DNA from: a virus
Length of the DNA stretch: 25,397 nt
Strand: one strand, 5' to 3'
IMG/VR virus record: IMGVR_UViG_3300025873_000042
Span: 1-25,397 of that record
In this document: positions 9,017 through 23,500 of the stretch, one piece after another
How the letters are laid out: the number at the start of each line of letters is the position of its first letter
How positions within the stretch are numbered: position 1 is the stretch's first letter
The notes under the pieces: generated by a model
Seen by the model: the letters and a program-made list of their open reading frames with translations, nothing else
The model's database searches: none
What the model was told of the DNA's origin: nothing
Program-made: the position numbers and the translations under genes

Positions 9017-9017
9017 C

Positions 9018-10017: not shown

Positions 10018-10052
10018 GAACTCATCGTAGTCCCATGTGTAGCGCCATGCAA
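10018..10052 (-). promoter_or_regulatory. Leaderless promoter, TTGCAT family copy
   Basis: Minus strand: TTGCAT at 10052-10047, 17-base spacer, TACGAT at 10029-10024, then GAGTTC and the GTG at 10017. The GAGTTCGTG that joins -10 and start recurs at 12188 and, with one or two changes, at 14313, 15453 and 23015. It would drive the last four reverse genes. Confidence 0.75.
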
Positions 10053-10159
10053 CATCATGGAGCCTAAGGGTCAGGAATGACCCCCACAAAACCGCAGGTC
10101 AGAGGGGGTATTTAGAAACCGTCAAGAAATCTCAAAGAAATCCTGACGAGGCTCCCAGA

Positions 10160-10489
10160 TCACAGCCAGTTTTCGCCATCCAACCCCGGTCGCCCCAACG
10201 CCGAACGGATCGCGTCGGCGATGTGACGCACCACCACCGGGTCGTTGACTCCGGTCCCGAACTTCTCTTGGACGTACCGGTCGGTGAGTGTCCCGGTCTT
10301 CGCCATGACGTAGGTGTGTCCGATGCCCCGGTCGTGGGGACGCCACACGGTGACGACCACATAGTCGTCAGGGCTGCCGCCTCCCATGAAACCGTGATGG
10401 GGGAGTTCGGAGATGAGCACCGAGTAGGACCAGCCGTCACCGGGCTGGTGGTCGTAGGTGTGGGGCATCTGCCCGTTGAGGGCGCTCAC
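10160..10489 (-). CDS. Hypothetical protein
   Basis: 109 residues from GTG at 10489 in a GTGA overlap with the gene before it. It has a His-rich first third (MPHTYDHQPGDGWSYS, LPHHGFMGGGSPDDYVVVTVW) and a later helical segment (DRYVQEKFGTGVNDPVVVRHIADAIRSAL). No cysteines, transmembrane segments or known motif. The roughly 70 bases after its stop hold only the start of the downstream promoter region and no convincing terminator. Function not recognised. Confidence 0.68.
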   Translation of the reverse strand: MSALNGQMPHTYDHQPGDGWSYSVLISELPHHGFMGGGSPDDYVVVTVWRPHDRGIGHTYVMAKTGTLTDRYVQEKFGTGVNDPVVVRHIADAIRSALGRPGLDGENWL

Positions 10490-10665
10490 CGGATCGCGTT
10501 CAGCACGGCTGCGGTCATCGTCAAAGAGTAGTCATTGACGAGGCGGTCGGCTTCGGCCCGGCTCAACAGTTCAGCCTGCCGGTGATCCAACCCCTCGCGG
10601 AGTTCGCATACGCACTCCAACGAACCTTCGTCGTCGTAGCAGATCATCCGGTGTTGTTCGGTCAT
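10486..10665 (-). CDS. Small hypothetical protein (59 aa)
   Basis: Found by following the overlap chain on the minus strand. ATG at 10665 overlaps the stop of the upstream gene (TGATG), and TGA at 10488-10486 overlaps the GTG of the downstream gene (GTGA). The protein starts MTEQHRMICYDDEGSLECVC and continues as a charged helix (LREGLDHRQAELLSRAEADRLVNDY). Three cysteines lie in the first 20 residues. Both exact overlap junctions support it as a real gene despite its size. Function unknown. Confidence 0.72.
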   Translation of the reverse strand: MTEQHRMICYDDEGSLECVCELREGLDHRQAELLSRAEADRLVNDYSLTMTAAVLNAIR

Positions 10666-10910
10666 CGGATTTCCTCCTCAATCGTTGCGGTGTAGAGGCC
10701 GGATGCGAGCCGGGGTACGACGTAACCGGCGGCGGTCCACCCGGCGCTATCGGTGCCTTCGACAGTGACGGTGACGGAGCCGTCCGGGTTTGGTCCGCTG
10801 TAGGCGACGGCGTAGTTGGCGGGCAGGTAGGCGTCAATCTTCCGCACGATGTCTGACGTTGATCTACCGTCGGCGTCGAACTTCGACACGTTCACTCGGA
10901 TGACCGTCAT
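10662..10910 (-). CDS. Hypothetical small protein
   Basis: 82 residues from the ATG at 10910, with GGAGGAGA on the minus strand about 7 bases upstream. Alternating beta and helix pattern: MTVIRVNVSKF, DIVRKIDAYLP, AVAYSGPNPDGSVTVTVEG, ending in acidic TIEEEIR. This could be a small alpha/beta fold, but none can be named. It lies between the ART-like gene and the 59-residue gene in the reverse operon. Confidence 0.75.
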   Translation of the reverse strand: MTVIRVNVSKFDADGRSTSDIVRKIDAYLPANYAVAYSGPNPDGSVTVTVEGTDSAGWTAAGYVVPRLASGLYTATIEEEIR

Positions 10911-10936
10911 CGGATCTCCTCCATGTTTCTATTCTC

Positions 10937-11371
10937 CTATTTTGGCATGTCCAACTGGTAGACGTTCCAGTCGAAGTTGTACGGGATCTCCCCGTCGTAG
11001 GTGTATGACTCGGTGTCGGCGGGAAACGCCGCCGGGTCGTGGTCGCCAGACTCGCCCAGTTTCGTCGGGTCTAGTTCATCGACTGGGATTTCGATGACGT
11101 AGATGTGGTCATGCTGGACGAAGTTTGGGATGGTCGCCGTTTTGCCATCGACCTCTACTTCGGTGTACCCGTCGAACTCGCCGCCCCTCATGGCGACGAA
11201 CATCGCGGCGTGGGCGGGCTTCGGTCCGGCAAGGTAGACGCAGCCATCGAAGCCGGGCTGGAGACCCTTCTCCATGATCGACCCAAGGTGGGTCTGCCAT
11301 GTCGCGTGGTACAGCGCCCGGCTTGTCGGAGCCGTGTACGTCGTTCCATCAGGGACAAACAGGTCGCTCAT
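10937..11371 (-). CDS. ADP-ribosyltransferase/2'-phosphotransferase-fold-like protein
   Basis: 144 residues from the ATG at 11371 in an ATGA overlap with the DUF3846-like gene. Features recall the ADP-ribosyltransferase fold as used by RNA 2'-phosphotransferases and many phage homologues: ALYHATWQTHLGSIMEKGLQ with His22 at the first strand, CVYLAGPKPAHAAMF with Tyr46, HIYVIEIPVDELDPTKL, then ESYTYDGEIP with Glu128. The order H-Y-E with YH.T....SI...GL.P and VYLA..P..A matches what is known of that group. If active it would use NAD to modify a host or phage target. No database check was possible; a catalytically dead relative is an alternative. Confidence 0.65.
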   Translation of the reverse strand: MSDLFVPDGTTYTAPTSRALYHATWQTHLGSIMEKGLQPGFDGCVYLAGPKPAHAAMFVAMRGGEFDGYTEVEVDGKTATIPNFVQHDHIYVIEIPVDELDPTKLGESGDHDPAAFPADTESYTYDGEIPYNFDWNVYQLDMPK

Positions 11372-11799
11372 GCGTCCTCCTTGGCTTCGTCCATGCGGGC
11401 CTTGATTTCTTCGATCGTGTGGACCAGCAGGAGCACGTTGTCGGACTGGAACCTCGGGGTCAACTCCACACCCTTCTGCACGGAGTCGGCGATGAACCCC
11501 GCCGGGCAGGGCAGCGTGTTGCCTTCGTCGTCGTGTGCTGCGAACACGACCGGGCCGACAAGGTTGTAGCCGGGGTTCCCGGTCCAGCCGCGAACCATGT
11601 AGGTGCCGAGCAGGTTGTATCCAAGGTCGTCGCGGTACAGCCCCTCTTCGTTGACCCATGCGTCTACCTGACCGGGGAGGGCGACACATTCGACCCAGCC
11701 ATCCACCAGAGTTTGGAGGTCGGCTAGTGAGTCGTCGGTGGTTTCCGCGAGGAACGCGTCACCGCCGGGGGTGATGACTAGGTAGACGGAATCGGCCAT
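11368..11799 (-). CDS. DUF3846-type protein
   Basis: 143 residues from ATG at 11799, which overlaps the preceding stop (TGATG) and is served by an AAGGAGG site on the minus strand. The order DLQTLVDGWVECVALP, DAWVNEEGLYR, YNLLG and then LVGPVVFAAHDDEGNTLP matches the DUF3846 pattern, a small domain frequent in phages and mobile elements of Gram-positive bacteria with no known biochemical role. The C-terminal 45 residues form a helical extension (VLLLVHTIEEIKARMDEAKED). It is likely co-translated with the ART-like protein. Confidence 0.75.
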   Translation of the reverse strand: MADSVYLVITPGGDAFLAETTDDSLADLQTLVDGWVECVALPGQVDAWVNEEGLYRDDLGYNLLGTYMVRGWTGNPGYNLVGPVVFAAHDDEGNTLPCPAGFIADSVQKGVELTPRFQSDNVLLLVHTIEEIKARMDEAKEDA

Positions 11800-12152
11800 C
11801 ACTTGACCTCCTTGGTGCATGGGAAGACCCGAGCCTCGAAACTGTTTCCGGCATCGGCGTATTCTTCGGGGGTCATGCCGTAGTCAGAAGAGATCCCACA
11901 GGCGAACAGGTCAAGGTCAACGGCCCGGACAAGATCATCGCCGTCGGTGACGGTGATGTTGTAGGTCTGGTTGACGAGTCCCTGTCGTTCGGCCCGTGCG
12001 ATGTCGCGGCAGCCGACCTTGTGGACGCCGTAGTCGTATTGCATATGGTTGACGACGGTGTATTCGGTGGTTTCCACGCCCTTGATGCGGGCTAACGCTT
12101 CTTGCTTGTCTTGTTCCAGCATTTCTTGTACCGCCGGATCGCTCATGTCCAT
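11799..12152 (-). CDS. Short form or separate gene inside the long frame
   Basis: 117 residues from ATG at 12152, with AAGGAGAG a few bases upstream; a leaderless GTG at 12182 would add ten residues. The protein has an acidic helical start (VQEMLEQDKQEALARIKGVE), then TTEYTVVNHMQYDYGVHKVGCRD and a beta-rich acidic end with three cysteines in total. It shares the leader peptide pattern M-T-x-T-D-x-QGE-T with the genes at 15459 and 23021. It is given separately because promoter and ribosome site make independent expression likely. Function unknown. Confidence 0.5.
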   Translation of the reverse strand: MDMSDPAVQEMLEQDKQEALARIKGVETTEYTVVNHMQYDYGVHKVGCRDIARAERQGLVNQTYNITVTDGDDLVRAVDLDLFACGISSDYGMTPEEYADAGNSFEARVFPCTKEVK

Positions 12153-12635
12153 TGTCTCTCCTTGGTGGTCGGTCTCGGTCACGAACTCAGTGTAGCACGG
12201 TCTAGCCCTGTGGTGCAACTCAGCGGCCTCGCTGTACCTAGCAGCGATCTTGTCCCAGCCATTCCTCGGGGGCACCGTTTCGACTCCGGCCTCGGCGGCG
12301 GCAGCGAACTGCTTGGCGACCTTCCCCCACTGGCCGCGAGGGCGAGCCTTGCCAACGATGTCGGTCAGGAAGCGGGCGAAGTTGGCGTGGTCCTCGGAAG
12401 TGCCGTTGACGCAGACGTACCAGCCGTCTTGGACCTCCGACATCATCGGGCGGCGTGGTGCGCGGCTTCCGACGACGGCCTCTCGGTAGCGGTTGTCGCA
12501 GTCAACGAACGGGCGACCGAACTCGGGGGACATCACCTGCCACGCCGGGAGAACCTTCCACGCGAGGAAGAGGTGCTGGGCCTTCGACAGAACGACGAGG
12601 ACCGAATAGGTGGCGGTGGTCGGGGTGGCGATCAT
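11799..12635 (-). CDS. Hypothetical protein, long form reading through an internal promoter
   Basis: 278 residues from ATG at 12635, six bases after a TACACT -10 element, so probably leaderless. Residues 1-145 hold VLVVLSKAQHLFLAWKVLPAWQ, a middle DGWYVCVNGTSEDHANFARFL and a basic helix with KARPRGQWGKVAKQF. Residues 146-160 are encoded by a complete second promoter of the same family, and the frame continues without a stop into a 118-residue domain that also has its own start at 12152. The two parts may once have been separate genes whose stop was lost, or the long form may be genuine. No family is recognised. The frame is open further upstream to 12884, but that part overlaps the terminase gene and lies outside the promoter. 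Confidence 0.6.
   Translation of the reverse strand: MIATPTTATYSVLVVLSKAQHLFLAWKVLPAWQVMSPEFGRPFVDCDNRYREAVVGSRAPRRPMMSEVQDGWYVCVNGTSEDHANFARFLTDIVGKARPRGQWGKVAKQFAAAAEAGVETVPPRNGWDKIAARYSEAAELHHRARPCYTEFVTETDHQGETMDMSDPAVQEMLEQDKQEALARIKGVETTEYTVVNHMQYDYGVHKVGCRDIARAERQGLVNQTYNITVTDGDDLVRAVDLDLFACGISSDYGMTPEEYADAGNSFEARVFPCTKEVK
12183..12218 (-). promoter_or_regulatory. TTGCAC promoter with leaderless GTG and in-frame second start
   Basis: Minus strand: TTGCAC at 12218-12213, 18-base spacer, TACACT at 12194-12189, GAGTTC, then GTG at 12182. Thirty bases further is an in-frame ATG (12152) behind AAGGAGAG. Downstream sequence GTGACCGAGACCGAC matches the copy at 15459. The element lies inside an open reading frame. 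Confidence 0.72.
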
Positions 12636-12672
12636 GGACTGAGTGTAGCACGATCTAGCACTCATGGTGCAA
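12636..12672 (-). promoter_or_regulatory. Leaderless promoter of the reverse operon
   Basis: Minus strand: TTGCAC at 12672-12667, a long 19-base spacer containing GCTAGATCGTGC, TACACT at 12647-12642, then six bases to the ATG at 12635. The spacer and -10 closely match the copy at 12218-12189 (GCTAGACCGTGCTACACT), so the pair is clearly related. It lies back to back with the terminase start region. Confidence 0.65.
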
Positions 12673-12692
12673 CTTGTTGTCGGAGTACGGTC

Positions 12693-12704
12693 TAGTCTTC
12701 CGAT
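12693..12704 (+). promoter_or_regulatory. Candidate -10 element before the terminase gene
   Basis: TAGTCT at 12693-12698 lies six bases before the GTG at 12705, the same geometry as the other leaderless starts, and no Shine-Dalgarno precedes the GTG. No good -35 box is seen at 17-18 bases, and the region overlaps the divergent promoter at 12672-12642. Confidence 0.4.
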
Positions 12705-14270
12705 GTGACACTGGATCTCCTGTTCGACCTCCCACCCGAGGAACGCATCCGGCTCCTGATGGCCGAAGGCCCACACGCGTGGGAAGCGATCGAAGCCGAA
12801 CGCGGAACCAAGTGGGCGGCGTTCGCCGACTGGCCCGAAGGGTTCGTAGAGATCGCCCTCGGCGAGTTCCTCTGGTCGAAGCAACGCGACATCCTCCGAT
12901 CACTGGTGGACAACAAGAGGACAGTTGTCCCGGCGTGCCACGCCCCCGGCAAGTCCCACATCGCAGCACGGGCCGTCGCATGGTGGGGCGCAGTCCACCC
13001 TCCCGGCACGGCGCTCGTCATCACGACCGCTCCCACGTTCCGTCAGGTGCGAACCATCCTGTGGCCGCACATCCGACGGGTCCACGCCATGAACGGTCTG
13101 CTAGGAGAGATGACCACGACCGAATGGAAGGTCGGACGCGACCTTGTGGCGTTCGGGTTTTCACCGTCAGACCACGACGAGTCCGCGGTGCAGGGCATCC
13201 ACGTTCCGCACCTACTCATCATCGTGGACGAAGCCGGAGGTATCAGCCCGACACTGGGACGCAGTTTTGAGTCGCTGATGACCGGGGGCCACACCCGCCT
13301 GCTGGCGATCGGCAACCCACCGTCGGACGATTCGGACACTTGGTTTGAGCGGGCTGTCGAATCCGGCAACTACGAGATCATCCGTATCGGCGCTCACGAC
13401 ACTCCGAACTTCACCGGGGAAGAGTGCCCGCCGGAAGTCGCCCGCCAGTTGATCGGTCCTGAGTGGGTGGACGATGTGGTTCGCGAGTTCGGCGAGGATT
13501 CGTCCTACGTCGAAGCCCGCGTCCATGCCCGCTTCCCGAGGGACAGCGGCAACCGGGTCATTCCGATCGACTGGATCGAACAGTCGATGGAGAACGAAGA
13601 CCCGTCGGCGTCCGACCAGATTCGCCTCGGGGTGGATGTCGCAGCGGGCGGTGGTGACGAGGTGGCTGTGGCTCGCGCTGAGGGGTTCACCGTGCGTATC
13701 GTTTACAGCCAAGGTGGGGCGGCGAACCTCAACGCTGTCGATGTTGCCGGGCAGGTGCTTCGCCAGATCGAAGAAGCCGAGCGGCTGGCGGCGACGGGGC
13801 CGTGGCGCAAACCGGTCAGGGTGAAGATCGACTCGGTGGGTGTCGGTTGGGGGGTGTCTTCGATTCTGGAAACGTGGAAGTCGGAGCATCGCCATTCGGC
13901 TGAGATTGTCCGGGTCAATGTTGGTGAGCGGTCGGGGTCGCCTCAGCAGTTCGCGAATCAGCGGGCTGAGATGTGGTGGAACGCTCGCACGTTGCTCCAG
14001 CCGGACAGTGGGGGTCGTCAGGAGATCCGGTTGGACATCGACCGGAAGACTGCTGCCCAGTTGTCGGTGCCGCGGTACGGGTCGGATTCGTCGGGGCGCA
14101 TCGCGATAGAGAAGAAGGACGCGATGCGAAAGCGGGGGGTGCCGTCGCCTGACCGGGCTGAGGCGATCCTGTTGGCTTTGTATGAGACGCCGAGGGGGCG
14201 TGTCCCGGTGGTGGGGCCGACTGGGATTGAGCAGGCGAATCCTTGGCAGATGAAGGGCAACTACTCCTAA
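12705..14270 (+). CDS. terL: Terminase large subunit (packaging ATPase/nuclease)
   Basis: 521 residues, full length for the family. ATPase domain: CHAPGKSH (Walker A-like, 78-85, Lys83), TTAPTFRQV (107-115), LLIIVDEA (Walker B, Asp175-Glu176) and AIGNPPS (coupling motif, 201-207). RNase H-like nuclease domain: GVDVAAGGGDE (Asp311), VKIDSVGVGWGV (Asp376) and GVPSPDRAEAILLAL (Asp483). These are the expected three acidic metal ligands. The protein pulls phage DNA into the procapsid and cuts it. The GTG start has a -10-like element 6 bases upstream. No small terminase subunit, portal or capsid gene lies next to it, which is unusual. A 358-residue antisense frame is a codon-bias shadow. Confidence 0.93.
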   Translation: MTLDLLFDLPPEERIRLLMAEGPHAWEAIEAERGTKWAAFADWPEGFVEIALGEFLWSKQRDILRSLVDNKRTVVPACHAPGKSHIAARAVAWWGAVHPPGTALVITTAPTFRQVRTILWPHIRRVHAMNGLLGEMTTTEWKVGRDLVAFGFSPSDHDESAVQGIHVPHLLIIVDEAGGISPTLGRSFESLMTGGHTRLLAIGNPPSDDSDTWFERAVESGNYEIIRIGAHDTPNFTGEECPPEVARQLIGPEWVDDVVREFGEDSSYVEARVHARFPRDSGNRVIPIDWIEQSMENEDPSASDQIRLGVDVAAGGGDEVAVARAEGFTVRIVYSQGGAANLNAVDVAGQVLRQIEEAERLAATGPWRKPVRVKIDSVGVGWGVSSILETWKSEHRHSAEIVRVNVGERSGSPQQFANQRAEMWWNARTLLQPDSGGRQEIRLDIDRKTAAQLSVPRYGSDSSGRIAIEKKDAMRKRGVPSPDRAEAILLALYETPRGRVPVVGPTGIEQANPWQMKGNYS

Positions 14271-14282
14271 CGCTAGATAGAG

Positions 14283-14317
14283 TTGCATCCACGCTCCACG
14301 CAGGCTATGATTAGTTC
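14283..14317 (+). promoter_or_regulatory. Leaderless promoter, TTGCAT family copy
   Basis: TTGCAT at 14283-14288, 17-base spacer, TATGAT at 14306-14311, six bases, then GTG at 14318. The upstream flank GCTAGATAGAG is shared with the copy at 22985. This copy has the closest -10 to consensus and lacks the later Shine-Dalgarno (CCAAGAAG in place of CCAAGGAG), so the GTG is the only plausible start. Confidence 0.8.
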
Positions 14318-14614
14318 GTGACCGGGACCGAGACCTTCCAAGAAGTGTGTGGCCGTGCCGTCAAGGTCAGGATCAAGCAGGACTGTGGAGACCACAGCGG
14401 TGCCACAAGGCGCGAGATCGTGGTCGGCGGCGAGATCGTCGGGCAGGTCACCCAGCGGGTCACTCGGTGGGGGGCGGGTGCGTGGCGGCTCACTTTGACG
14501 GACTCCGACAAGCAGGCCACGGTGCTGGAAATAGGCAACGGCTACAACGACTTCTCCTATCTCGCTGAGGTCAGGGCAGCCGTGGCCGCAGCATTTGCCA
14601 CGGAAGCCAAGTGA
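14318..14614 (+). CDS. Hypothetical protein with leaderless start
   Basis: 98 residues from GTG at 14318, placed exactly at the expected transcription start of the promoter upstream. It begins MTGTETFQEV, a diverged form of the MTxTD.QGE leader seen at 12182 and 15459. Then a basic beta-like part (VKVRIKQDCGD, GEIVGQVTQRVTRWGAGAWRLTL) and a helical Ala-rich end (YLAEVRAAVAAAFATE). No known domain. Its TGA overlaps the ATG at 14614 and it is co-transcribed with the zinc-finger gene. Confidence 0.75.
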   Translation: MTGTETFQEVCGRAVKVRIKQDCGDHSGATRREIVVGGEIVGQVTQRVTRWGAGAWRLTLTDSDKQATVLEIGNGYNDFSYLAEVRAAVAAAFATEAK

Positions 14615-15420
14615 TGACTGAGACCACGACGATCCTCCGGGGTGACATCCCGAAGCCGCGCAAGGTTCCCGTCCGACGGGACTGCACCCGTTGTGGTGGC
14701 GCAGGTGGTTGGAAGGGCTGGCCCGGCTTCACCTGTTTCCGATGCAGCGGCTTCGGCAGCGACCCGGTGGACGGCAAAGACTGGAAGTTCCCAACCGGGT
14801 GGACTGACGCTGAGGTCGAAGAGTTCCTCGCGAAGAAGGAAGCCCAGCGGGAAGCCCGAGCCGAGAAGCGGAAGGCAAATCAGGTCGCTAAGGCGCAGGC
14901 CAATAAGGATGCCTTCGCCGCTGTCCACCCGGAACTGTGGGCGGCGATGGAAGCCGCCGAGGGCGGGTTCCTGTCCAGCCTCGCAATGCAGGTCACCTAC
15001 CACGGGGTTCTCAGCGACAAGCAGATCGACGCCGCCGAGCGGGCAGTCGAACACGATGCTGAGTGGGTAGCCAAGCAGGCCGTGTGGGACGCCGAGAAGG
15101 CAGCCGCCGCCGATGCCCCGACCGGCAAGGTTGAGGTCGAAGGTGAGGTCGTTTCGATGAAGTGGACCGAGGGTCGGTTCCCGGCGCACAAGATGATGGT
15201 CAAGGCCGACACCGGCTACCGGGTGTGGGTCACCGTTCCCGCTTCTCTTGATGGTCGCAGCAGCGATGATGGACGGGATTGGATTGTCGGGGTTGTGAAG
15301 GGTGACCGGGTTCGGTTCACCGCCACGCTGGAGCACAGCGACGACGATGCGACGTTTGCTTTCGGTAAGCGTCCGACAGGTGCGGAACTTGTGAGCACCG
15401 AGCCACAGGGCACCCGATAG
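14614..15420 (+). CDS. DnaJ-type zinc-motif protein with C-terminal OB-like domain
   Basis: 268 residues from the ATG in a TGATG overlap (GTG at 14611 is an alternative). Two CxxCxGxG motifs, CTRCGGAG (Cys24/Cys27) and CFRCSGFG (Cys41/Cys44), form one DnaJ-like zinc site. A long charged helix follows (about 65-100, EEFLAKKEAQREARAEKRK), then a helical middle. From about residue 170 comes a beta-rich domain: VEVEGEVVSMKWTEG, KMMVKADTGYRVWVTVP, GDRVRFTATLEHS and FAFGKRPT. The last part resembles the nucleic-acid-binding-like domain of similar proteins in actinophages. A DNA metabolism role is inferred; it is not a DnaJ chaperone because there is no J domain. Confidence 0.78.
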   Translation: MTETTTILRGDIPKPRKVPVRRDCTRCGGAGGWKGWPGFTCFRCSGFGSDPVDGKDWKFPTGWTDAEVEEFLAKKEAQREARAEKRKANQVAKAQANKDAFAAVHPELWAAMEAAEGGFLSSLAMQVTYHGVLSDKQIDAAERAVEHDAEWVAKQAVWDAEKAAAADAPTGKVEVEGEVVSMKWTEGRFPAHKMMVKADTGYRVWVTVPASLDGRSSDDGRDWIVGVVKGDRVRFTATLEHSDDDATFAFGKRPTGAELVSTEPQGTR

Positions 15421-15422
15421 AG

Positions 15423-15458
15423 TTGCATCACGCTACACGAGGCGCTATGCTGGAGTTC
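15423..15458 (+). promoter_or_regulatory. TTGCAT promoter with leaderless GTG and in-frame second start
   Basis: TTGCAT at 15423-15428, 17-base spacer, TATGCT at 15446-15451, seven bases, then GTG at 15459. A second in-frame GTG at 15492 follows AAGGAG at 15478-15483. The promoter starts three bases after the preceding stop. This is one of the two best matches in the family. Confidence 0.8.
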
Positions 15459-15491
15459 GTGACAGGGACCGACTACCAAGGAGAGAAGACA

Positions 15492-15845
15492 GTGGAGACA
15501 CCAGTTGTTCAGGATCAGGGCGTTCAGGTCGGAGACCTCTTCGCCTGCTCGTGGGGCTACGACCAGACTCAGGTCGATTTCTACGAGGTCGTCGGTTTGA
15601 CGCCTTCGGGCAAGAGCGTCAAGGTCAAGCCGGTCGAACAGGTGCGGACTAGCGCACCGGGGCCGTCTGAAACCGTGGCTCCTGTCAAGGGCAGCGCATG
15701 GGGCGAGGCCAAGACCTACCGGATCAAGGATGTGACTTGGGGCAGCGAGGTCAAGTACGCCTTCCGGGTCAGCAGTTACTCCAGCGCCTACTCGGGCGAC
15801 TGGGACGGTCAGTGGACTGTCACAGGCTGGGGGTACGGTCGATAA
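15492..15845 (+). CDS. Hypothetical phage protein (GDLF-CSWGYDQT type)
   Basis: 117 residues from GTG at 15492 with AAGGAG eight bases upstream; the leaderless GTG at 15459 would give 128 residues starting MTGTDYQGEK. The core VGDLFACSWGYDQTQVDFYEVVGLTPSGKSVKVKPVEQV is a recurrent motif in small early phage proteins, with a compact SH3-like beta pattern. The end is aromatic and Ser/Gly-rich (YSSAYSGDWDGQWTVTGWGYG). Function unknown. The TAA overlaps the next ATG (TAATG). Confidence 0.8.
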   Translation: METPVVQDQGVQVGDLFACSWGYDQTQVDFYEVVGLTPSGKSVKVKPVEQVRTSAPGPSETVAPVKGSAWGEAKTYRIKDVTWGSEVKYAFRVSSYSSAYSGDWDGQWTVTGWGYGR

Positions 15846-16015
15846 TGGCTGAGATAACGAGCGGTAAGAACCTGACCGTCATCGTGCTGGATGAGGATGA
15901 GGCCCGCCTGCTGGGCGATCACCTTGGTCACGAACCGACGTTCCCGACACACGAAGAGCGCCGACGGCTGCACGCTCTGGTAGAGGCGCTAGCCGAAGCG
16001 TTGGTGAGTGCGTGA
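15845..16015 (+). CDS. Small hypothetical protein (56 aa)
   Basis: Starts at ATG 15845 in a TAATG overlap. It is a short, largely helical acidic/basic protein: LTVIVLDEDEARLLGDHLG, then an Arg/Glu-rich helix (THEERRRLHALVEALAEALV). The size and helix pattern could suit a small regulator or partner-binding protein, but no DNA-binding motif is clear. Its TGA overlaps the next start (GTGATG). Confidence 0.7.
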   Translation: MAEITSGKNLTVIVLDEDEARLLGDHLGHEPTFPTHEERRRLHALVEALAEALVSA

Positions 16016-16221
16016 TGGCTGCCAAGCGGTACACCTACGAGCCGGTCGGCTACGACCTGTTCAGCCCGACCGGGCACGCGCCGGAGACGGGGACGGTGGT
16101 TGTGAAGACGCAGCCACACGGATGCCCGAGGAACGGCACGATGGGTCACTGTTACGTCAAGGATGCTGAGACCGACGAGTTCTATGGGCTGGTCTTGGTC
16201 AACAGTCTGGAGGCTGTGTGA
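16015..16221 (+). CDS. Small hypothetical protein (68 aa)
   Basis: ATG at 16015 overlaps the preceding TGA; GTG at 16012 is an alternative. The protein is aromatic near the start (KRYTYEPVGYDLFSP), with two Cys-containing turns (HGCPRNGTMGHCYV), and ends in a beta hairpin-like EFYGLVLVNSLEAV. It lies in a run of short co-translated genes. No family is recognised. Confidence 0.7.
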   Translation: MAAKRYTYEPVGYDLFSPTGHAPETGTVVVKTQPHGCPRNGTMGHCYVKDAETDEFYGLVLVNSLEAV

Positions 16222-17359: not shown

Positions 17360-17952
17360 GCATCACAACAGCGGATCTTCACGACCGCTTTCGTACCGGT
17401 GAGCACCTGACCGAAGGCGACACCGGCTCCGACGGTCTCCGCAAGGGCGTCTCGTCGCAGATCGACTTTGCGTTGATGAACATTCTGGCTGCGTTGGAGA
17501 CGTTGGATCAGCAGATCGCTGTGGAGTTGGAAGACCCTCCGAGTGCCCGGTGCCTGTTCACATGGTTGGAGACGATCGAAGCGATCCGTCGCTCGTTGGC
17601 TTTTCATACTCCTGACATCGCGGCGGCGATAGCGAAGCAGGTCAAGTCGAACGAGCCTCAGGTGGACGTACCGTCTGCCCCGGTTGTGAAGTGGTCGAAG
17701 TCGTCCAGCCAGTGGGACAACGAAGCCCTTGAGGGGGCGGTCCGTAAGGGGCTGGTGTCTGAGGCTCGGGACGCCGGGTTGGATGAGGGCGCTGTCGGGA
17801 TCTTGAATACGACGATCACGCAACTGGGTCGCATCTACCGGCTGGCCGGGTCGAACGTCCGGTTGACGGCACTCAAAGAGTTGGACATTGACCCTGACGA
17901 ATACTGTGCTCGTGGCGAAGCGAAGCCACGGGTCCAGTTCTTCCCATCGTGA
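17356..17952 (+). CDS. Hypothetical early protein
   Basis: 198 residues from ATG at 17356 (ATGA overlap). Two regions: an N-terminal helical part (QIDFALMNILAALETLDQQI, WLETIEAIRRSLAFH) and a C-terminal part with WDNEALEGAVRKGLV, an internal helix pair, and RLTALKELDIDPDEYC. The latter segment looks like a small helical domain that recurs in actinophage proteins, although I cannot name it. Just upstream of a winged-helix gene and of the recombination/replication genes, so a role in DNA metabolism or its control is possible. Confidence 0.72.
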   Translation: MSITTADLHDRFRTGEHLTEGDTGSDGLRKGVSSQIDFALMNILAALETLDQQIAVELEDPPSARCLFTWLETIEAIRRSLAFHTPDIAAAIAKQVKSNEPQVDVPSAPVVKWSKSSSQWDNEALEGAVRKGLVSEARDAGLDEGAVGILNTTITQLGRIYRLAGSNVRLTALKELDIDPDEYCARGEAKPRVQFFPS

Positions 17953-18371
17953 CCGGGGGACAATCGTCGTTCTGGTCGGACTACACCGAGGACCAGATCA
18001 CCGACGACGTGACGGGTGGCCCGGTGGGTCGTGACCATCCCGATACTTCCAAGCGGGCTGCGGCGAAGGTCCGGTCCGGGTCGCAGCGGTACAAGGTGCT
18101 CCACTTCTTGTACGACTTGGGGGGCCAGACGGCGTTTGAGTTGTCGAAGAGGGTGACCCATGACGATGGTCGGGCGATCGCGGCGAATCAGATAGCGACG
18201 CGGTTGGGTGAGTTGCGCGACCTTGGTCTGGTGGTTCGATCACGCCAGTTCCCTGACGGACCCACGCTGGAGCGGGCTACAACGCCGGGCAACCGTGGCA
18301 TTGTCCATGAGATCACGCTAGGTGGGATCGAAGCCTTTCTAGCGGTAAGATACAGAAACGACACGAAGTAG
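17949..18371 (+). CDS. Winged helix-turn-helix DNA-binding protein
   Basis: 140 residues from GTG at 17949 (GTGA overlap). The segment DHPDTSKRAAAKVRSGSQRYKVLHFLYDLGGQTAFEL followed by AANQIATRLGELRDLGLV is a winged HTH: helix, turn, recognition helix (ANQIATRLGELRDLG), then a wing-like VVRSRQF. DTSK.AA..V..GSQR is a typical lead-in of phage HTH proteins of this kind. It may regulate the early promoters or help replication. The recognition helix is intact and there is no truncation. Confidence 0.82.
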   Translation: MTGGQSSFWSDYTEDQITDDVTGGPVGRDHPDTSKRAAAKVRSGSQRYKVLHFLYDLGGQTAFELSKRVTHDDGRAIAANQIATRLGELRDLGLVVRSRQFPDGPTLERATTPGNRGIVHEITLGGIEAFLAVRYRNDTK

Positions 18372-18387
18372 CGAAAGAGAGCAAGCC
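18346..18387 (+). promoter_or_regulatory. Candidate promoter and SD for the recombination/replication genes
   Basis: TAAGAT at 18346-18351 is a fair -10 element in a locally A-rich leader, followed by an AAAGAGAG ribosome site before the GTG at 18388. The -35 region is poor. A 5' leader of about 30 bases would result, unlike the leaderless family. Confidence 0.35.
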
Positions 18388-19032
18388 GTGGATGAGCACC
18401 AGCCAATCGAAATCCTTCTGCATCGCGTGATGACCGACATCGGCGCGGTGGAGAAGACAGGACGCAACCAGTCCCAACAGTTCAACTTCCGAACCATTGA
18501 CGACACGATGAATGCGGCGCACAAGGCGCTCACCATTCACGGCGTGATCGTCGCCCCGGAGATCGTGGACAAGTTCAGCGAACGGATCGCCACCAAGAAC
18601 GGCAACCTAGCGCAGCGCGTGGAGTTGACCGTCCGGTACCGGTTCATCGGCCCGAAGGGCGACGAGGTGTTGGCAACGGTCGCGTCGGAGGGCATCGACT
18701 ATGGGGACAAGGCCACATCGAAGGCCATGTCGATGGCGTTGAAGTATGCGCTCTTTCAGACGTTGATGATCCCCACCGAAGAAGCCGACCCTGACGCCCA
18801 GACCTACGAGATCGCTTCGGAACCGACGGTCAGCGAAGAAGAGGTCGTCCAGATCCAAAACTGGTTCATCGGTATCACCGACGACGAGCGGCGCAAGGTG
18901 CTCAAGAAGGACTTCATGGACAGGTACGGGTGCCCTCCAGTAGAGTTGCCTTCCCGCTTGATGAACGACTTCTACGATTGGGCGGGGCAGGTGCTAGCCG
19001 TGGAAGAGACGAAGGAGAAGCAGAGTGCCTAG
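18388..19032 (+). CDS. erf: ERF-family single-strand annealing protein
   Basis: 214 residues from GTG at 18388. ERF signature: KTGRNQSQQFNFRTIDDTMN (23-42), then a beta-rich middle (LTVRYRFIGPKGDEVLATV), and EGIDYGDKATSKAMSMALKY with ALFQTLMIPTEE (101-132), the conserved GDKA..KA.S.ALKY core. ERF proteins form rings on single-stranded DNA and anneal homologous strands in phage recombination and genome circularisation. The C-terminal third is acidic and helical, probably a partner-binding tail. The stop overlaps the start of the replication initiator gene by eight bases, linking recombination with replication. Confidence 0.9.
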   Translation: MDEHQPIEILLHRVMTDIGAVEKTGRNQSQQFNFRTIDDTMNAAHKALTIHGVIVAPEIVDKFSERIATKNGNLAQRVELTVRYRFIGPKGDEVLATVASEGIDYGDKATSKAMSMALKYALFQTLMIPTEEADPDAQTYEIASEPTVSEEEVVQIQNWFIGITDDERRKVLKKDFMDRYGCPPVELPSRLMNDFYDWAGQVLAVEETKEKQSA

Positions 19033-19789
19033 TCGCCTTTGGAGCGACACCGGCCCGTTCACAATCATCCCCGAATGGCTGCTGGATTCTCCCATCAGCG
19101 ACGGTGCTGTCCGGTTGTACGGGATACTTGGCCGGTACGCCAATGATGAGGACGCAGCGTGGCCGTCGCGTGGCCTGCTGGCAAAGAGGATGGGTACCAC
19201 CACAAAGTCGGTGGACCGTCGGATCGCTGAACTGGTGAAGGCTGGGGCGCTTGCTGTGGAGCATCGCCTCGCTGAGAGTCCGACCGGGAACAGGTTTCAC
19301 CGGTCGAACATCTATCACCTCAAGCGTGTAGACCCTTCGGGGGTAGGGACACAGTTGTCCCTACCTAGAGACGCTGATGTCCCCACGGTGGCGACAGTGG
19401 TGTCTCTGGGTGGGGACACTGTTGTCGCCCTGAACGAGAGCCATGAACTAGAGCCAATAGAACGAGACGTGCGCGTCGAAAAGCCAGAGGCATCTGTTCT
19501 CTGTGATCGACTCGCTGACCTGATCGCAGCGGACGGTTCCAACAGGCCGACCGTGACGAAACGGTGGATCGAAGAGATGGATCGCCTCGTCAGGATCGAC
19601 GGCTACGACATGGCAGCGGTATCGGAGATGATCGACTGGGTGACAACCGAGGACTTCTGGTCATCCAACATCCTCTCCCCGCAGAAGTTACGAAAGCATT
19701 ACCCCCGGTTGATGAAGCAGCGAAGGCGCTTGAACGGCTCAGTTGCCACCGGGCGCACCGACCGGTTGCTGGCGGTGCTTGATGACTAA
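19025..19789 (+). CDS. Replication initiator/replisome organiser with HTH domain
   Basis: 254 residues from GTG at 19025. The N-terminal 100 residues form a helix-turn-helix domain (TIIPEWLLDSPISDGAVRLY, SRGLLAKRMGTTTKSVDRRI, ELVKAGAL). A central, probably unstructured segment (about 105-145) is encoded by four DNA iterons. The C-terminal part (about 170-240) has MDRLVRIDGYDMAAVSEMI, TTEDFWSSNILSPQKLRKHY and a basic end, as in phage replisome organisers that recruit a helicase or loader. It lies between ERF and a loader-like gene, the usual replication module order. It most likely binds the iterons inside its own gene and opens the origin, as lambda O does. Confidence 0.85.
   Translation: MPSRLWSDTGPFTIIPEWLLDSPISDGAVRLYGILGRYANDEDAAWPSRGLLAKRMGTTTKSVDRRIAELVKAGALAVEHRLAESPTGNRFHRSNIYHLKRVDPSGVGTQLSLPRDADVPTVATVVSLGGDTVVALNESHELEPIERDVRVEKPEASVLCDRLADLIAADGSNRPTVTKRWIEEMDRLVRIDGYDMAAVSEMIDWVTTEDFWSSNILSPQKLRKHYPRLMKQRRRLNGSVATGRTDRLLAVLDD
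19342..19430 (+). repeat. Four iterons inside the initiator gene: candidate replication origin
   Basis: Four direct repeats start at 19342, 19364, 19387 and 19409 (spacing 22, 23, 22). Examples are GGTAGGGACACAGTTGTCCC and GGTGGGGACACTGTTGTCGC. Eleven of the first 20 columns are identical in all four, including G.GAC....G.TGTC.C. Each is a quasi-palindrome GGGACA-N4-TGTCCC; in copy 1 the arms pair perfectly over 10 bp (19342-19351 with 19356-19365). The spacing is not a multiple of three, so the repeat is kept for DNA, not protein. The sequence after them (about 19433-19500) is less GC-rich. Confidence 0.78.
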
Positions 19790-20204
19790 GGACGAAGCCA
19801 AGCAGGTTCTCCAAATGCTGCTCGGGGCGTTCCCTCGGCATGGGCTGGATGACAACGGGGTGAGGATGTGGGGGGAGTCCCTCAGCCGCTCCGATTTTGA
19901 TGTTGCCGTGGCAGCGGCTCGCCAAGTGATTCAACGAGACGAGTTCATGCCATCCATCGCGAAGTTCTCTGGCGAGATCAGGCACGCGGTGAACCTCAGC
20001 AAGCGGCGTCCTAGCAGCGACGACTGCACGAATCCCGACGGTTGTCAGGGGTGGTGGCTGAAACAGAGTGAAAGCGCAGTTGTGAACGGTGACGGTGAGG
20101 TTGTGGAGGTCAGAACTGTGGAGAAAGCAACTCCGTGCTCCGAGTGCCGACCCGACCTGTTCGCCCGGTGGAAAGACGGTTCCCTACACAAGTCGAAGAC
20201 ATGA
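19782..20204 (+). CDS. Helicase-loader-like protein
   Basis: 140 residues from ATG at 19782, overlapping the initiator gene by eight bases. The N-terminal part TKDEAKQVLQMLLGAFPRHG, VRMWGESLSRSDFDVAVAAA and DEFMPSIAKFSGEIRHA follows the pattern of G39P-type phage helicase loaders (three or four helices; W...L...D...V; F.PS...). The C-terminal part has CTNPDGCQGWW and CSECRPDLF, two Cys pairs that could bind zinc, which is not typical of that family. It probably loads a host or phage helicase at the origin. Confidence 0.7.
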   Translation: MTKDEAKQVLQMLLGAFPRHGLDDNGVRMWGESLSRSDFDVAVAAARQVIQRDEFMPSIAKFSGEIRHAVNLSKRRPSSDDCTNPDGCQGWWLKQSESAVVNGDGEVVEVRTVEKATPCSECRPDLFARWKDGSLHKSKT

Positions 20205-20998
20205 TCTACCGGGTTGGTGCTGCGTTCGTCGCATCGGTGGCGATGATTACCTGTTCGGCTGCGGGCACCGACACGGGGGCCGGTAATCTCTCTGCTGGCC
20301 CCGTGACCACCGCGGCTGTGCGGCAAGCCGTCTCTGAGCCTGTGCGTCGTGCTCAGAGCATTGTGAGCACGCACACCGTGGCTCCCGACACGAGCACGTC
20401 AAGTGATCCTCTGATGGGTACGACCAGTGGGAGCGTGAACTCCATTCAGTCCATGATGGCATCAACCACTACAATACCGCTTACTTACAACGACTTGTTG
20501 TATCACGAGTTTGCAATGTATGAGCGGGGTGGCGATGTTATAGCCCTCCAAATGCACCTTGGGTTGAAAAGTGTGGACGGTATCTACGGTCCTGTGACGA
20601 GGCGGGCGCACGTTGACTACTTCGGAGGACCACTAGCGGCGCTCGCTGTGTTCCACCCACAGGTCGTCTACCCGGTTGCGTCTGGTGACACGACCCTCGG
20701 TGAACTGATCGACCGGTACTTCCAATCCGCTGACCGGGCGTGGGCACGTCAGGTCGCGTTCTGCGAATCAAGCGCACAAACGCATCACACCGGATCGGAG
20801 GTGGTGTCGTCAGCGTTCGCGATCGGCTGGTTCCAGCACCTCGCCAAGTTCTGGGACGAACGCTCCGAGAAGGCCGGGGTGCCGGGTGCCAGCCCGTTCG
20901 ATACCGAAGCGAACGTCGCTGTCGCTGCATGGTTGCTCTATGAGGGCGGCGGTGCCCGGCATTGGAATCCATCACGAACCTGTTGGGAGACAGAATGA
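20201..20998 (+). CDS. Secreted peptidoglycan-binding transglycosylase
   Basis: 265 residues from ATG at 20201 (ATGA overlap with the loader gene). A signal peptide (MIYRVGAAFVASVAMITC) has a possible lipobox at Cys18, followed by a Ser/Thr-rich linker. Residues about 105-142 form a PG_binding_1-like domain (GGDVIALQMHLGLKSVDGIYGP, TRRAHVDYFG). Residues about 175-262 resemble lytic transglycosylases/lysozymes: ARQVAFCESS with Glu189 as probable catalytic acid, FAIGWFQHLAKFW, and EANVAVAAWLLYEGG then HWNPSRTC. An exported wall-cleaving enzyme translated with replication genes is unusual. Options are superinfection exclusion, an accessory lysin, or a virion enzyme for DNA entry. Confidence 0.82.
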   Translation: MIYRVGAAFVASVAMITCSAAGTDTGAGNLSAGPVTTAAVRQAVSEPVRRAQSIVSTHTVAPDTSTSSDPLMGTTSGSVNSIQSMMASTTTIPLTYNDLLYHEFAMYERGGDVIALQMHLGLKSVDGIYGPVTRRAHVDYFGGPLAALAVFHPQVVYPVASGDTTLGELIDRYFQSADRAWARQVAFCESSAQTHHTGSEVVSSAFAIGWFQHLAKFWDERSEKAGVPGASPFDTEANVAVAAWLLYEGGGARHWNPSRTCWETE

Positions 20999-21168
20999 CG
21001 GACATGACTGTGGACCAGATATTGGCGATGACCGAGGAAGCCATGAGGCGGTGGCGGGCCAAGCAAGAACCCGATCTGGACTTCACCGACTACGGCGACC
21101 ACAACCTGCATCCTCGCACGGGGACATGTGGGCATTGCGGCGGCACGCTCGGTGGGTGCCGATGCTGA
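20995..21168 (+). CDS. Small zinc-knuckle protein (57 aa)
   Basis: ATG at 20995 overlaps the previous TGA (ATGA). The first half is an acidic helix (MTDMTVDQILAMTEEAMRRW). The second half ends TGTCGHCGGTLGGCRC, with four cysteines in CxxC...CxC and a histidine, a compact zinc-binding pattern. Function unknown. It overlaps the secreted-protein gene downstream by seven bases. Confidence 0.72.
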   Translation: MTDMTVDQILAMTEEAMRRWRAKQEPDLDFTDYGDHNLHPRTGTCGHCGGTLGGCRC

Positions 21169-21833
21169 GGGTCATCCTCGTCGCCGCGATGATCTTCGCC
21201 GGGCTGTCGGTGACCCCAGCAGGAGCCGATCACGACATGGTTTACGCACCTTGCGATCCGGAGGACACCCGCTCATACGACGAGCGTGTCTGGTACATCG
21301 ACTACCAGAGCGGCGACATGCTCCGCTTCGATGACCCGTGGTGGGGTGAACGTCCGGGTTTCGGGAGGTACACGAACTGGCGTCACCAGTGTCGGTTGGG
21401 GATGACCGGCGTCTGGCAGGCCGCGCCCATCCTCCCCTTGCCCCACCCGCCGACCCACACAATCGAGAGCCGGGACGCGATCAGGGCGACAACAACCACG
21501 ACCACGGTTGTCCCGACGACTACTACAACTCTGGCTCCGACCACCACGACGACTACGACGACCACGACGCCTCCAGAACCGGAGCCTCCCGCAAACGAAC
21601 CAGAGGCCATGCCAGCGCCCGACCTGCTCTCGGCAGCAGACACCCCCGACGACTACGACCTGTTCGACGCCGAGTGGGACGGCTACCCGTTTGAGCAGAC
21701 AATCCTGTTGCTGGAAGAGCGGTACCCGCCGGGTACGCCTGACCGGTTCCATTTCCGGCTGTCTATCGCTGTTGAGTTCTTACGGGGTGGAGGCATGGTA
21801 AAAGGTCTGGACAACCTGTGGGAGAACGGCTGA
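21162..21833 (+). CDS. Secreted Thr-rich linker protein
   Basis: 223 residues from ATG at 21162. A signal peptide (MLRVILVAAMIFAGLSVTPAGA) is followed by a roughly 80-residue region with two cysteines and many aromatics (VWYIDYQSGDMLRFDDPWWG, WRHQCRLGMTGVWQ). A low-complexity stretch of nearly pure Thr with Pro/Val (about 107-137) leads to PPEPEPP and a C-terminal segment with EQTILLLEERYPPGTPDRFH. The layout, a small exported head, a Thr linker and a short tail, parallels the giant lipoprotein at 4528. No enzyme motif. Probably displayed on or released from the cell; role unknown. Confidence 0.78.
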   Translation: MLRVILVAAMIFAGLSVTPAGADHDMVYAPCDPEDTRSYDERVWYIDYQSGDMLRFDDPWWGERPGFGRYTNWRHQCRLGMTGVWQAAPILPLPHPPTHTIESRDAIRATTTTTTVVPTTTTTLAPTTTTTTTTTTPPEPEPPANEPEAMPAPDLLSAADTPDDYDLFDAEWDGYPFEQTILLLEERYPPGTPDRFHFRLSIAVEFLRGGGMVKGLDNLWENG

Positions 21834-21991
21834 TGGGGTTCGACGGCTTCAACTTTTCCACCAATCACCTTGTGGACAAGAAGTACGGCAAGGATGGCCT
21901 GCCCGCCATAGTCTGTGGGTGTGGCCGGGTGACAACGGATCACACCCCGAGGGAACTTCGACGGTGCCGGGTGGAACAGGAGGCGGCGTGA
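21833..21991 (+). CDS. Small Cys-containing protein (52 aa)
   Basis: ATG at 21833 overlaps the preceding TGA (TGATG) and TGA at 21989-21991 overlaps the next GTG (GTGA). The protein contains FDGFNFSTNHLVDKKYGKDG, then IVCGCGRVTTDHTPRELRRC, with CxC, His and a further Cys as a possible one-zinc site. It is supported by the exact overlap chain on both sides. Function unknown. Confidence 0.72.
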   Translation: MGFDGFNFSTNHLVDKKYGKDGLPAIVCGCGRVTTDHTPRELRRCRVEQEAA

Positions 21992-22167
21992 GCAGCACGG
22001 TGCGAGGGCCAGCACGCCGTCAGGTTCGGTTGTATCTGACGATCGAAGACCTGATCTCTTTGAGCGGCGTGGATGGTGGGGTGAACCTGTCGGTGTCCCA
22101 TGTGGACCATGCTCCTGACAGTGATGTGGCTGCGGTGAGGGTGTGCATGGTGGAGGAATCGGAGTGA
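21988..22167 (+). CDS. Small hypothetical protein (59 aa)
   Basis: GTG at 21988 in a GTGA overlap. The sequence starts basic (STVRGPARRQVRLYLTIEDL) and becomes acidic, with a beta-like middle (GVNLSVSHVDHAPDSDVAAV). Only one cysteine. It ends EESE, overlapping the HNH gene start (GTGA). No family is recognised. Confidence 0.68.
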   Translation: MSSTVRGPARRQVRLYLTIEDLISLSGVDGGVNLSVSHVDHAPDSDVAAVRVCMVEESE

Positions 22168-22487
22168 AGCGCACCCCGTTGACGCGCAAGACCCGGCTTC
22201 GGTCGGTGAGTCCGAAGCGGGCCAAGGTCCAGCGTCTCCGGCGCACGATGGTTGCTGAGGAACTCGCGAAGCGGGAACTGTGCGAGGCCGGGGCACGCAT
22301 TACGCAAGCCGGGCATGACGCCCGGTGTCACGGTTTAGCGGTCGAACTCCATGAACCGTTGACCCGTGCGCGAGGCGGGTCGATACTTGACCCAGCGAAC
22401 ACTGTGGCGATCTGCCGATCTTGCCACGATTGGATTCATGTCAACCCGGCTGCTGCTACTGGTCTCGGGTTGTTGGTGTCGTCGTGA
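22164..22487 (+). CDS. HNH endonuclease
   Basis: 107 residues from GTG at 22164 (GTGA overlap). A basic start (KRTPLTRKTRLRSVSPKRAK) is followed by RELCEAGARITQAGHDARCHG, AVELHEPLTRARGGSILDPAN and VAICRSCHDWIHVNP. The HE of LHEPL, the Asn of DPANTVAICRSCH and the final H of CHDWIH make the H-N-H metal site, with two CxxC-like Cys pairs as structural zinc. Phage HNH enzymes often sit by terminase genes and help packaging; here it is about 8 kb away, so packaging, recombination and homing-like roles all remain open. Confidence 0.85.
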   Translation: MKRTPLTRKTRLRSVSPKRAKVQRLRRTMVAEELAKRELCEAGARITQAGHDARCHGLAVELHEPLTRARGGSILDPANTVAICRSCHDWIHVNPAAATGLGLLVSS

Positions 22488-22627
22488 GTTGGTGCTCTTG
22501 TGGTGAGCGGGCCGACTATGGGATTAGGCGTCGGGTTGGTGGCTGGTTGAGGTTGTGTGCTCAGTGTGCGAGTGGGTGCGCGGCGAAGGAAGTGTTGGTT
22601 CCTATGGAGGTGATTGGGCGTGCGTGA
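22484..22627 (+). CDS. Small zinc-knuckle protein (47 aa)
   Basis: GTG at 22484 in a GTGA overlap with the HNH stop. MSWCSCGERADYG and then RLCAQCASGCAAKE give CxC, CxxC and a further Cys, a compact zinc-ribbon pattern with an Arg-rich strand between (IRRRVGGWLRLC). The stop overlaps the next gene by eight bases. Function unknown. Confidence 0.7.
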   Translation: MSWCSCGERADYGIRRRVGGWLRLCAQCASGCAAKEVLVPMEVIGRA

Positions 22628-22967
22628 CATGGTGACTCAGGGTGGGATCGAATCTCAGATCCTTTCTCTGGTCGATGAGTTGGAGGAATACACGGATGCG
22701 TATGCGACGGTTTGTGAAGAGGCGGCGCGTGCCGATGTTGCTCACAAGCGTGCGTTCACTCGGCATCTGGTGACGTTGGCTGCGGACGATCCGAAGATGA
22801 CGGTTGCGTTACGGGAGGCGAAGGCGACGCAGAAGGCGATTGACGAGATGGCGGTGGCTCGGATCATGGCTGCGAAGGAGCGGGCGATTCGGGAGAAGTT
22901 GACGAGCCTGCGTGCTCGGTTGGATGCGTTGCGTACTTTGTCGGCGAACGTGAGAGCACAGACGTAA
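22620..22967 (+). CDS. Coiled-coil hypothetical protein
   Basis: 115 residues from GTG at 22620, overlapping the previous stop by eight bases. Nearly all helical: ESQILSLVDELEEYTDAYAT, a long charged Ala-rich stretch, and AKERAIREKLTSLRARLDAL with heptad spacing of Leu/Ile. No cysteines except one near residue 40. It could be an oligomeric scaffold or an RNA/DNA-binding coiled coil. It closes the operon; the next promoter begins 17 bases after the stop. Confidence 0.75.
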   Translation: MRDMVTQGGIESQILSLVDELEEYTDAYATVCEEAARADVAHKRAFTRHLVTLAADDPKMTVALREAKATQKAIDEMAVARIMAAKERAIREKLTSLRARLDALRTLSANVRAQT

Positions 22968-22984
22968 CACTGTGCTAGATAGAG

Positions 22985-23020
22985 TTGCATCCATGCTCTA
23001 GGGAGGCTATGCTGGGGTTC
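22985..23020 (+). promoter_or_regulatory. TTGCAT promoter with leaderless GTG and in-frame second start
   Basis: TTGCAT at 22985-22990, 17-base spacer, TATGCT at 23008-23013, seven bases, then GTG at 23021. An in-frame ATG at 23057 follows AAGGAGAG at 23046-23053. The upstream flank GCTAGATAGAG is the same as at 14273. Confidence 0.82.
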
Positions 23021-23056
23021 GTGAGTGAGTCCCCAACCACCGACCAAGGAGAGACC

Positions 23057-23500
23057 ATGGTTGTTACGTCCAAGCCGGTTTCAGCATTGAAGCCTGCGGA
23101 GAAAAAGGCGTTCTACGAGAGCGTCCATGCTGCGGCCCACGCTGCTGGTTGGGAGGCTGCCGAAGCGGCGGTCCTTCCCCAGTTCGTTGCGGTCCAGCAC
23201 GCGAACCCACTGGACGACTCGTCTGAGATCGTCAAGGTTTGGGAGCAGCCGTTTGAGTTGTGCGGTTTCGCGAGCGTCCAGATCAAGGGCGCAAACAAGG
23301 GCTACGGCAAATGGGTCGTCGCCTCTGGAACCGGCGGTACCGATTCGTACAACGGCGGTGCCTACATCTGGGTGAAGAAGTTCGGCCAGAGCCACGGGAG
23401 GAAGGTCGCTTACGCGAGCGCCTACGCGGAGAGCGCGGCAGCGGCACTCGCCGAGGCCGGTGAAGAGACCTACGTCTGGGTCTCAGAAAGGTTGGACTGA
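23057..23500 (+). CDS. Hypothetical protein behind TTGCAT promoter
   Basis: 147 residues from ATG at 23057 with a strong AAGGAGAG; the leaderless GTG at 23021 would add 12 residues (MSESPTTDQGET). Sequence: a helical start (LKPAEKKAFYESVHAAAHAA), a middle beta part (FELCGFASVQIKGANKGYGK, GAYIWVKKFGQS) and an Ala-rich helix near the end (ASAYAESAAAALAEAGEE). The segment GFA.V.IKGANK..GKW resembles small phage proteins of unknown function. It is the first gene of the last operon in the window. Confidence 0.78.
   Translation: MVVTSKPVSALKPAEKKAFYESVHAAAHAAGWEAAEAAVLPQFVAVQHANPLDDSSEIVKVWEQPFELCGFASVQIKGANKGYGKWVVASGTGGTDSYNGGAYIWVKKFGQSHGRKVAYASAYAESAAAALAEAGEETYVWVSERLD

Follow-up and report, generated by a model that had tools for sequence, protein, structure and literature searches.

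A dispersed cassette of a probable promoter and start codon before unrelated small genes of an uncultured phage and its relatives

The IMG/VR virus record IMGVR_UViG_3300025873_000042, from an uncultured phage, was analysed over positions 1 to 25,397 (25.4 kb; this whole stretch is called the window below). It contains six dispersed copies of a sequence cassette located at the starts of different genes, and comparisons with related phage contigs indicate that the cassette is probably a promoter of the host sigma type that carries a leaderless start and doubles as a recombination joint. A preliminary description of the window had recognized a promoter family with leaderless start codons; judging from the alignments presented below, it missed that the cassette reaches into the coding sequence and marks joints of gene swapping.

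Six copies of one cassette and their relatives

The preliminary description placed copies at 10052, 12218 and 12672 on the minus strand and at 14283, 15423 and 22985 on the plus strand. All six are present on these strands, and the pattern TTGCAY-N17-19-TANNNT-N6/7-RTG (where RTG is ATG or GTG) has exactly six matches in the window compared to 0.01 expected; a count of six arose in none of 100 shuffles. The measured spacers (17, 18, 19, 17, 17 and 17 bases, in the above order) and the distances from the -10 hexamer to RTG (6, 6, 6, 6, 7 and 7 bases) agree with the earlier values of 17 bases in four copies and 18 and 19 in two, followed by gaps of 6–7 bases. A weight-matrix scan had been suggested as a check, with equally good matches inside genes counting against the family. 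Such a position weight matrix was built from eight copies and applied to both strands of the window, with Markov-simulated sequence as a control. The six copies score 48–64 bits and there is no seventh; all other window matches above 9 bits are register shifts of the same six, and the simulated sequences yielded none above 12 bits. By this check the family is not refuted.

The similarity includes the sequence around the promoter elements. As had been noticed before, five copies share one sequence across the start codon, GTTCGTGA, while the sixth (12672, minus strand) has GTCCATGA instead. The flank TAGATAGAG ahead of the -35 hexamer does recur, although at 14274 and 22976 rather than at the previously given 14275 and 22978, and a version with two mismatches occurs at 15414.

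A search with the terminase (PHROG 2) found IMGVR_UViG_3300010153_000008 (G001, 55 kb), IMGVR_UViG_3300037585_001448 (G002, 93 kb) and IMGVR_UViG_3300008952_001330 (G003) at 97% protein identity, and a 56-kb contig with 42% GC (G004) at 83%; no terminase relatives were found in genome_contigs. The cassette family is present in four related phage contigs, namely G001 (seven copies) and G003 (three), with none left over, IMGVR_UViG_3300032278_002294 (L097, one) and IMGVR_UViG_3300008216_001826 (L179, one), giving 18 copies in total with the six of the window; it is also present in a near-duplicate fifth contig. All G001 cassettes reappear in G002, each shifted by 37,810 bases, so this record appears to be the same 55-kb genome assembled redundantly. 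A scan of IMG/VR with the cassette pattern returned 42 stretches, mostly single chance matches on unrelated contigs with no open frame, among which L097 is a true copy. Among cultured phages, the terminase has its best matches, at about 50% identity or less, in phages of Arthrobacter, Microbacterium and Streptomyces, which makes an actinobacterial host likely.

Three copies lie on the minus strand of the window. The copy at 10015–10052 (TTGCAT-N17-TACGAT-N6-GTG) ends in GTG 10017, which opens an open reading frame (ORF) of 84 amino acids (MSEQRFHEV...); the same gene occupies this slot at G001 46364 and G003 8119, both with an in-frame TAG 6 nt before the GTG. At 12180–12218 (TTGCAC-N18-TACACT-N6-GTG), GTG 12182 begins MTETDHQGETMDMSD..., and at 12633–12672 (TTGCAC-N19-TACACT-N6-ATG), ATG 12635 begins MIATPTTATYSV... 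with no Shine-Dalgarno sequence. The gene that starts at 12635 (11802–12635, minus strand), for which a single weak relative was found, has no stop ahead of the 12218 cassette, and its 278-amino-acid open frame runs into the next gene, so that the 12218 copy would be an internal promoter inside an ORF. On the plus strand, the copies at 14274–14320 (TTGCAT-N17-TATGAT-N6-GTG) and 22976–23023 (TTGCAT-N17-TATGCT-N7-GTG) both include the upstream TAGATAGAG; GTG 14318 begins MTGTETFQEVC... and GTG 23021 begins MSESPTTDQGETMVV... The remaining copy, at 15423–15461 (TTGCAT-N17-TATGCT-N7-GTG), leads to GTG 15459 and MTGTDYQGEKTVET... Searches of the cassette genes against PHROGs and Pfam gave almost no matches, apart from the product of 15459, which matches phrog_37844 of unknown function; Rfam and tRNA scans gave none. 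Promoter-like sites with the same style of -10 (CGCTACACT, CACGCTAGACT) also occur at 24660 and 24987 (plus strand), with a normal leader and Shine-Dalgarno sequence, and with RTG near +1 absent or out of frame.

The conserved DNA, for which the preliminary description had raised a shared operator set, could instead be mainly a set of operator or activator sites, bound by a putative phage regulator that co-controls these genes, with the leaderless starts incidental. The recurring TAGATAGAG flank would fit such a set, as would a GCTANAY-like element that precedes the -10 by 5–7 bp in most copies as well as in G004, which is poor in GC. However, the spacing of this element is not fixed, its match is poor in the G001 42617 and 22985 copies (two gene types), it resembles the -10 itself, and no regulator gene is tied to it. 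We regard an operator set as quite unlikely. The GCTANAY-like element is seen at 15429–15445, at 10030–10046 and in other cassette spacers of the window, and at 17145, 21073 and 28805 of G004, thus in phages of both 61% and 42% GC; a regulator site or a second -10 are both possible.

Leaderless geometry and a second in-frame start

In terms of geometry and frame, the comparison of all 18 copies gives good support to the leaderless reading. Each has the -10 hexamer 6 or 7 nt ahead of ATG or GTG, which puts the predicted +1 on the R of RTG; each has a C immediately before the RTG; and in each the RTG opens the reading frame of the downstream gene. A preference for C at -1 is known from actinobacterial leaderless transcripts (PMC4633059). 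ATG replaces GTG in two of the copies (12635 and G001 19752), a G-to-A change that retains the start codon. An earlier start is impossible at 14318, G001 29423, G001 46399 and G003 8084, where a TAG six bases ahead of the RTG closes the frame. There is no Shine-Dalgarno sequence near the start in copies 10052, 12672, 14283, G001 42617 and G001 29458, and no better start nearby.

In about half of the gene types, AAGGAGAG is present with a second in-frame ATG or GTG behind it, which the preliminary description had missed. Three of the six copies in the window (12218, 15423 and 22985) are of this kind, as are their relatives, and for these three the term leaderless, as applied in the preliminary description, may cover only half of their translation. 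Behind GTG 12182, AAGGAGAG at 12163–12156 and ATG 12152 (together 12150–12163, minus strand) place the second start 30 nt past the first. The corresponding elements on the plus strand are AAGGAGAG at 15478–15485 with GTG 15492 (15478–15494), 33 nt past GTG 15459, and AAGGAGAG at 23046–23053 with ATG 23057 (23046–23059), 36 nt past GTG 23021. The distance between the two starts is always a multiple of three, though leader length and junction differ.

The relationship between geometry and frame was assessed in the window, G001, G003, G004 and 76 relatives. Where TANNNT-N(d)-RTG lies upstream of a start led by a Shine-Dalgarno sequence, the RTG is in frame with it in 16 of 20 cases at d = 6–7, compared with 9 of 51 at d = 2–5 and 8–12. 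The difference gives P = 1.6e-6 by Fisher’s exact test, a value inflated by shared ancestry; about ten junctions are independent, and all of them are in frame (P = 1.7e-5).

The layout with two starts is not confined to this sequence family. G004 has it with its own version of the promoter at 6786, 21085 and 28818, and contig L079 with a perfect TTGACA. In the cultured Arthrobacter phage Laroye (L211, KU160654.1), the start of the annotated gene 79 at 47292 (minus strand) reads TTGACA-N17-TACACT-N6-ATG, and behind it come a CAAGGAG and a second ATG, both in frame, while no dual-start site was found in Microbacterium phage ValentiniPuff. A scan for GTTC-GTGA plus a Shine-Dalgarno leader found G001, G002, G003 and contigs L157 and L158.

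These data also bear on a simpler scenario, an ordinary leadered promoter, where the G or A of RTG is the transcription start owing to base preference, a 5' untranslated region with a Shine-Dalgarno sequence takes up the following 30 nt, and only the second start is used, the copies without Shine-Dalgarno sequence being decayed or weak starts. In the family of the window, G001 and G003, AAGGAGAG is invariant across the copies with a Shine-Dalgarno sequence while neighbouring positions vary, which speaks for this scenario, as does the stop between the two starts of G004 described below. It does not explain why the clear junctions of this type are all in frame, which has a chance of about (1/3)^10 if frame is irrelevant, nor why RTG opens the frame in the roughly half of the gene types that lack a Shine-Dalgarno sequence, several with a stop just upstream, nor why RTG is retained when its first base changes. 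We consider an exclusively leadered promoter unlikely.

Several observations weigh against the reading favoured here. The copies share ancestry, so the counts of 18 out of 18 are not independent, in contrast to the roughly ten Shine-Dalgarno-type junctions. The first codons vary mostly at non-synonymous positions and the N-terminal peptide is not visibly conserved, and at G004 17157 a TAA closes the RTG frame immediately ahead of the ATG led by a Shine-Dalgarno sequence, so the extension is not made there. An excess of 6-nt gaps over the 76 relatives (109 compared to a background near 35) speaks for the reading, but it becomes smaller with each protein family counted a single time (38, against 9–43 at other gaps). 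The same geometry is also found at other starts, and its retention at the terminase start in G001, G003 and G004 counts in favour of the leaderless reading. The endolysin (2619) and terminase (12693) genes had been taken to be preceded by weaker relatives of the cassette; the TANNNT-N6/7-GTG geometry is indeed there, and the rest of the cassette is not shared. The start of the terminase large subunit (12693–12707, plus strand; TAGTCT-N6-GTG) is the same in G001 and G003 and reads TACTTT-N6-ATG in G004, while that of the endolysin (2619–2634, plus strand; TAGCAT-N7-GTG) is kept in G003, appears as TAACAT-N6-ATG in G004, and is not kept in G001. These starts and the shrinking excess indicate that the geometry is widespread in the lineage rather than particular to the cassette. 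That the frame is kept though the peptide is not is what would be expected if ribosomes initiate at the first RTG.

Leaderless geometry was also seen in contigs L015, L019, L035 and L076, which carry terminases and are classed as viral; by eye, we take their gene starts to resemble those of proteasome beta subunits and WhiB-like proteins, and the contigs may be proviruses or pieces of host DNA.

In-frame fusion and gene exchange at fixed slots

BLASTP comparisons among the cassette proteins show that unrelated bodies share only residues 1 to 7–14. The window protein from 12182 and the G001 protein from 44266 share 12 residues (1–12; E = 9e-8), those from 14318 and G001 29423 share 13 (E = 2e-7), and those from G001 42582 and L097 share seven. 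With only the N-termini in common, the first codons belong to the cassette and are joined in frame to different bodies. The genes at 14318 and G001 29423 were considered as a single family, which was rejected as nothing beyond the 13 N-terminal residues is common.

Different genes occupy the same slots in related phages. Behind terminases of 93–95% DNA identity there are three, beginning with MTGTETFQEVC in the window, MTETAKTNV in G001 and MTETHYQGEKTV in G003, and the alignment to relatives stops at 14329–14330. On the other side of the terminase the alignment stops at 12632, at the cassette of the 12635 gene, and the three contigs again have three different genes. The slot at G001 29458 likewise holds different genes in G001 (MTETETFQEVC), L097 (MTETAKTTPR) and L179 (MSEQTIQKG). 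The homology to G001 and G003 restarts at 15412–15416, next to the 15423 copy. Overall, three of the six cassettes in the window coincide with breaks in the alignments, and of 28 breakpoints, 3 are no more than 15 bp from a cassette, compared to a coverage of 1.6% (P = 0.010). Copies 10052 and 22985 are colinear between relatives, and not every copy is thus a recent joint.

The G004 version of the cassette occupies four of the same slots, on both sides of the terminase, at 22985 and at G001 29458. A fifth orthologous slot (G004 28818 versus G001 19752) was rejected, since a conserved gene separates the two. Of the seven G001 cassette genes, six lack a homologue in G004; among the other genes, this is true of 12 of 47.

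A cautionary point is that the excess of breakpoints depends on three sites, and any mosaic phage has some breakpoints near repeats, as would be seen with a neutral dispersed repeat spread by recombination and having no role in joints or expression. Against such a repeat, every copy is at a gene start in the correct orientation and none at a random position, and the slots persist in relatives whose GC contents are 61% and 42%; we consider it very improbable.

Proposed mechanism and comparison with known systems

The above results lead us to propose that each copy would be a portable 5' gene end of about 50–90 bp that continues in frame into an unrelated small accessory gene and is made up of the upstream flank, a promoter of the host sigma-A type (-35 TTGCAY, -10 TANNNT), an ATG or GTG at the predicted +1, and the first 7–14 codons. 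Transcription by host RNA polymerase would begin at the R of RTG and give a leaderless mRNA on which 70S ribosomes could initiate directly. The host enzyme is the likely reader since the Pfam list of 60 G001 proteins contains no sigma factor or RNA polymerase; it contains no integrase either. A zeta-toxin-like kinase is in the Pfam list of G001 (L148–L150), and an RNA ligase was found there with PHROGs. Gene types with AAGGAGAG and a second in-frame ATG or GTG could also start in a leadered way, and as both starts are in the same frame the product would be one protein, with or without an extension of 10–12 residues.

The shared cassette DNA would in addition serve as a homology patch for gene exchange at fixed slots. 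The agent could plausibly be the phage’s own Erf-type single-strand annealing protein, encoded at 18388–19029 (plus strand; PF04404, E = 4e-22), a candidate for recombination at the cassettes. Elsewhere in the window, a long Pro-Glu dipeptide repeat occupies 6738–7015 within a 1253-amino-acid ORF (4528–8289).

More tentatively, we suggest that promoter, +1 start, first codons and in-frame second start together form a front end that takes unrelated genes at fixed slots and ensures, for any frame-matched gene recombining in, both transcription and two modes of initiation, leaderless with 70S ribosomes and led by a Shine-Dalgarno sequence. The question of how newly acquired orphan genes come to be expressed in a phage without upsetting its own regulation would find a testable answer in the cassette. 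The cassettes also provide a clean natural set for comparing the two modes of initiation on one mRNA, and they warn that start-codon annotation is ambiguous for genes of this type.

The cassettes resemble the leaderless transcripts of mycobacteria and other actinobacteria (Shell et al. 2015, PMC4633059), which have RTG at +1 and C at -1 and need no Shine-Dalgarno sequence, and among which in-frame upstream leaderless starts have also been reported. Those transcripts come from scattered host genes, however, while the phage has one sequence family before unrelated genes, often with an in-frame Shine-Dalgarno start. Repeats at actinophage gene starts that are conserved with a gene family are known as start-associated sequences (SAS) and extended SAS in cluster K mycobacteriophages and Microbacterium cluster EF phages, the SAS being a GGGATAGGAGCCC-like motif of 13 bp that takes the position of the ribosome site, immediately before the start (PMC3203893, PMC7302621). 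No such 13-bp repeat precedes the shared RTG of the cassettes, which follows a -10 and 6–7 nt; the phage repeat consists of a promoter and a start, with the Shine-Dalgarno sequence inside the open frame. In phage lambda, the cI repressor mRNA transcribed from PRM begins at its AUG, as is predicted for the genes described here; cI-type cases are single regulatory genes and not a dispersed set.

The PeSL cassettes of T4-like phages (Arbiol 2010; Comeau 2014, as cited in PMC4503421), which consist of an early promoter and a stem-loop, are mobile regulatory cassettes, repeated promoter modules linked to the shuffling of small genes between related phages, and the phage cassettes are likewise repeated promoter modules at gene-exchange joints. 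A stem-loop or terminator was not found as a cassette part: terminator-like sites in 9000–25397 are not above chance, and only the one at 12658–12670 (plus strand) overlaps a cassette. PeSL modules reportedly end before the gene, whereas the phage cassette, without stem-loop, includes the start codon and first codons. Leaderless starts are nothing unusual for actinobacteria, and T4-like phages provide known examples of promoter joints, while the combination of a dispersed gene-swapping cassette with an in-frame second start looks new.

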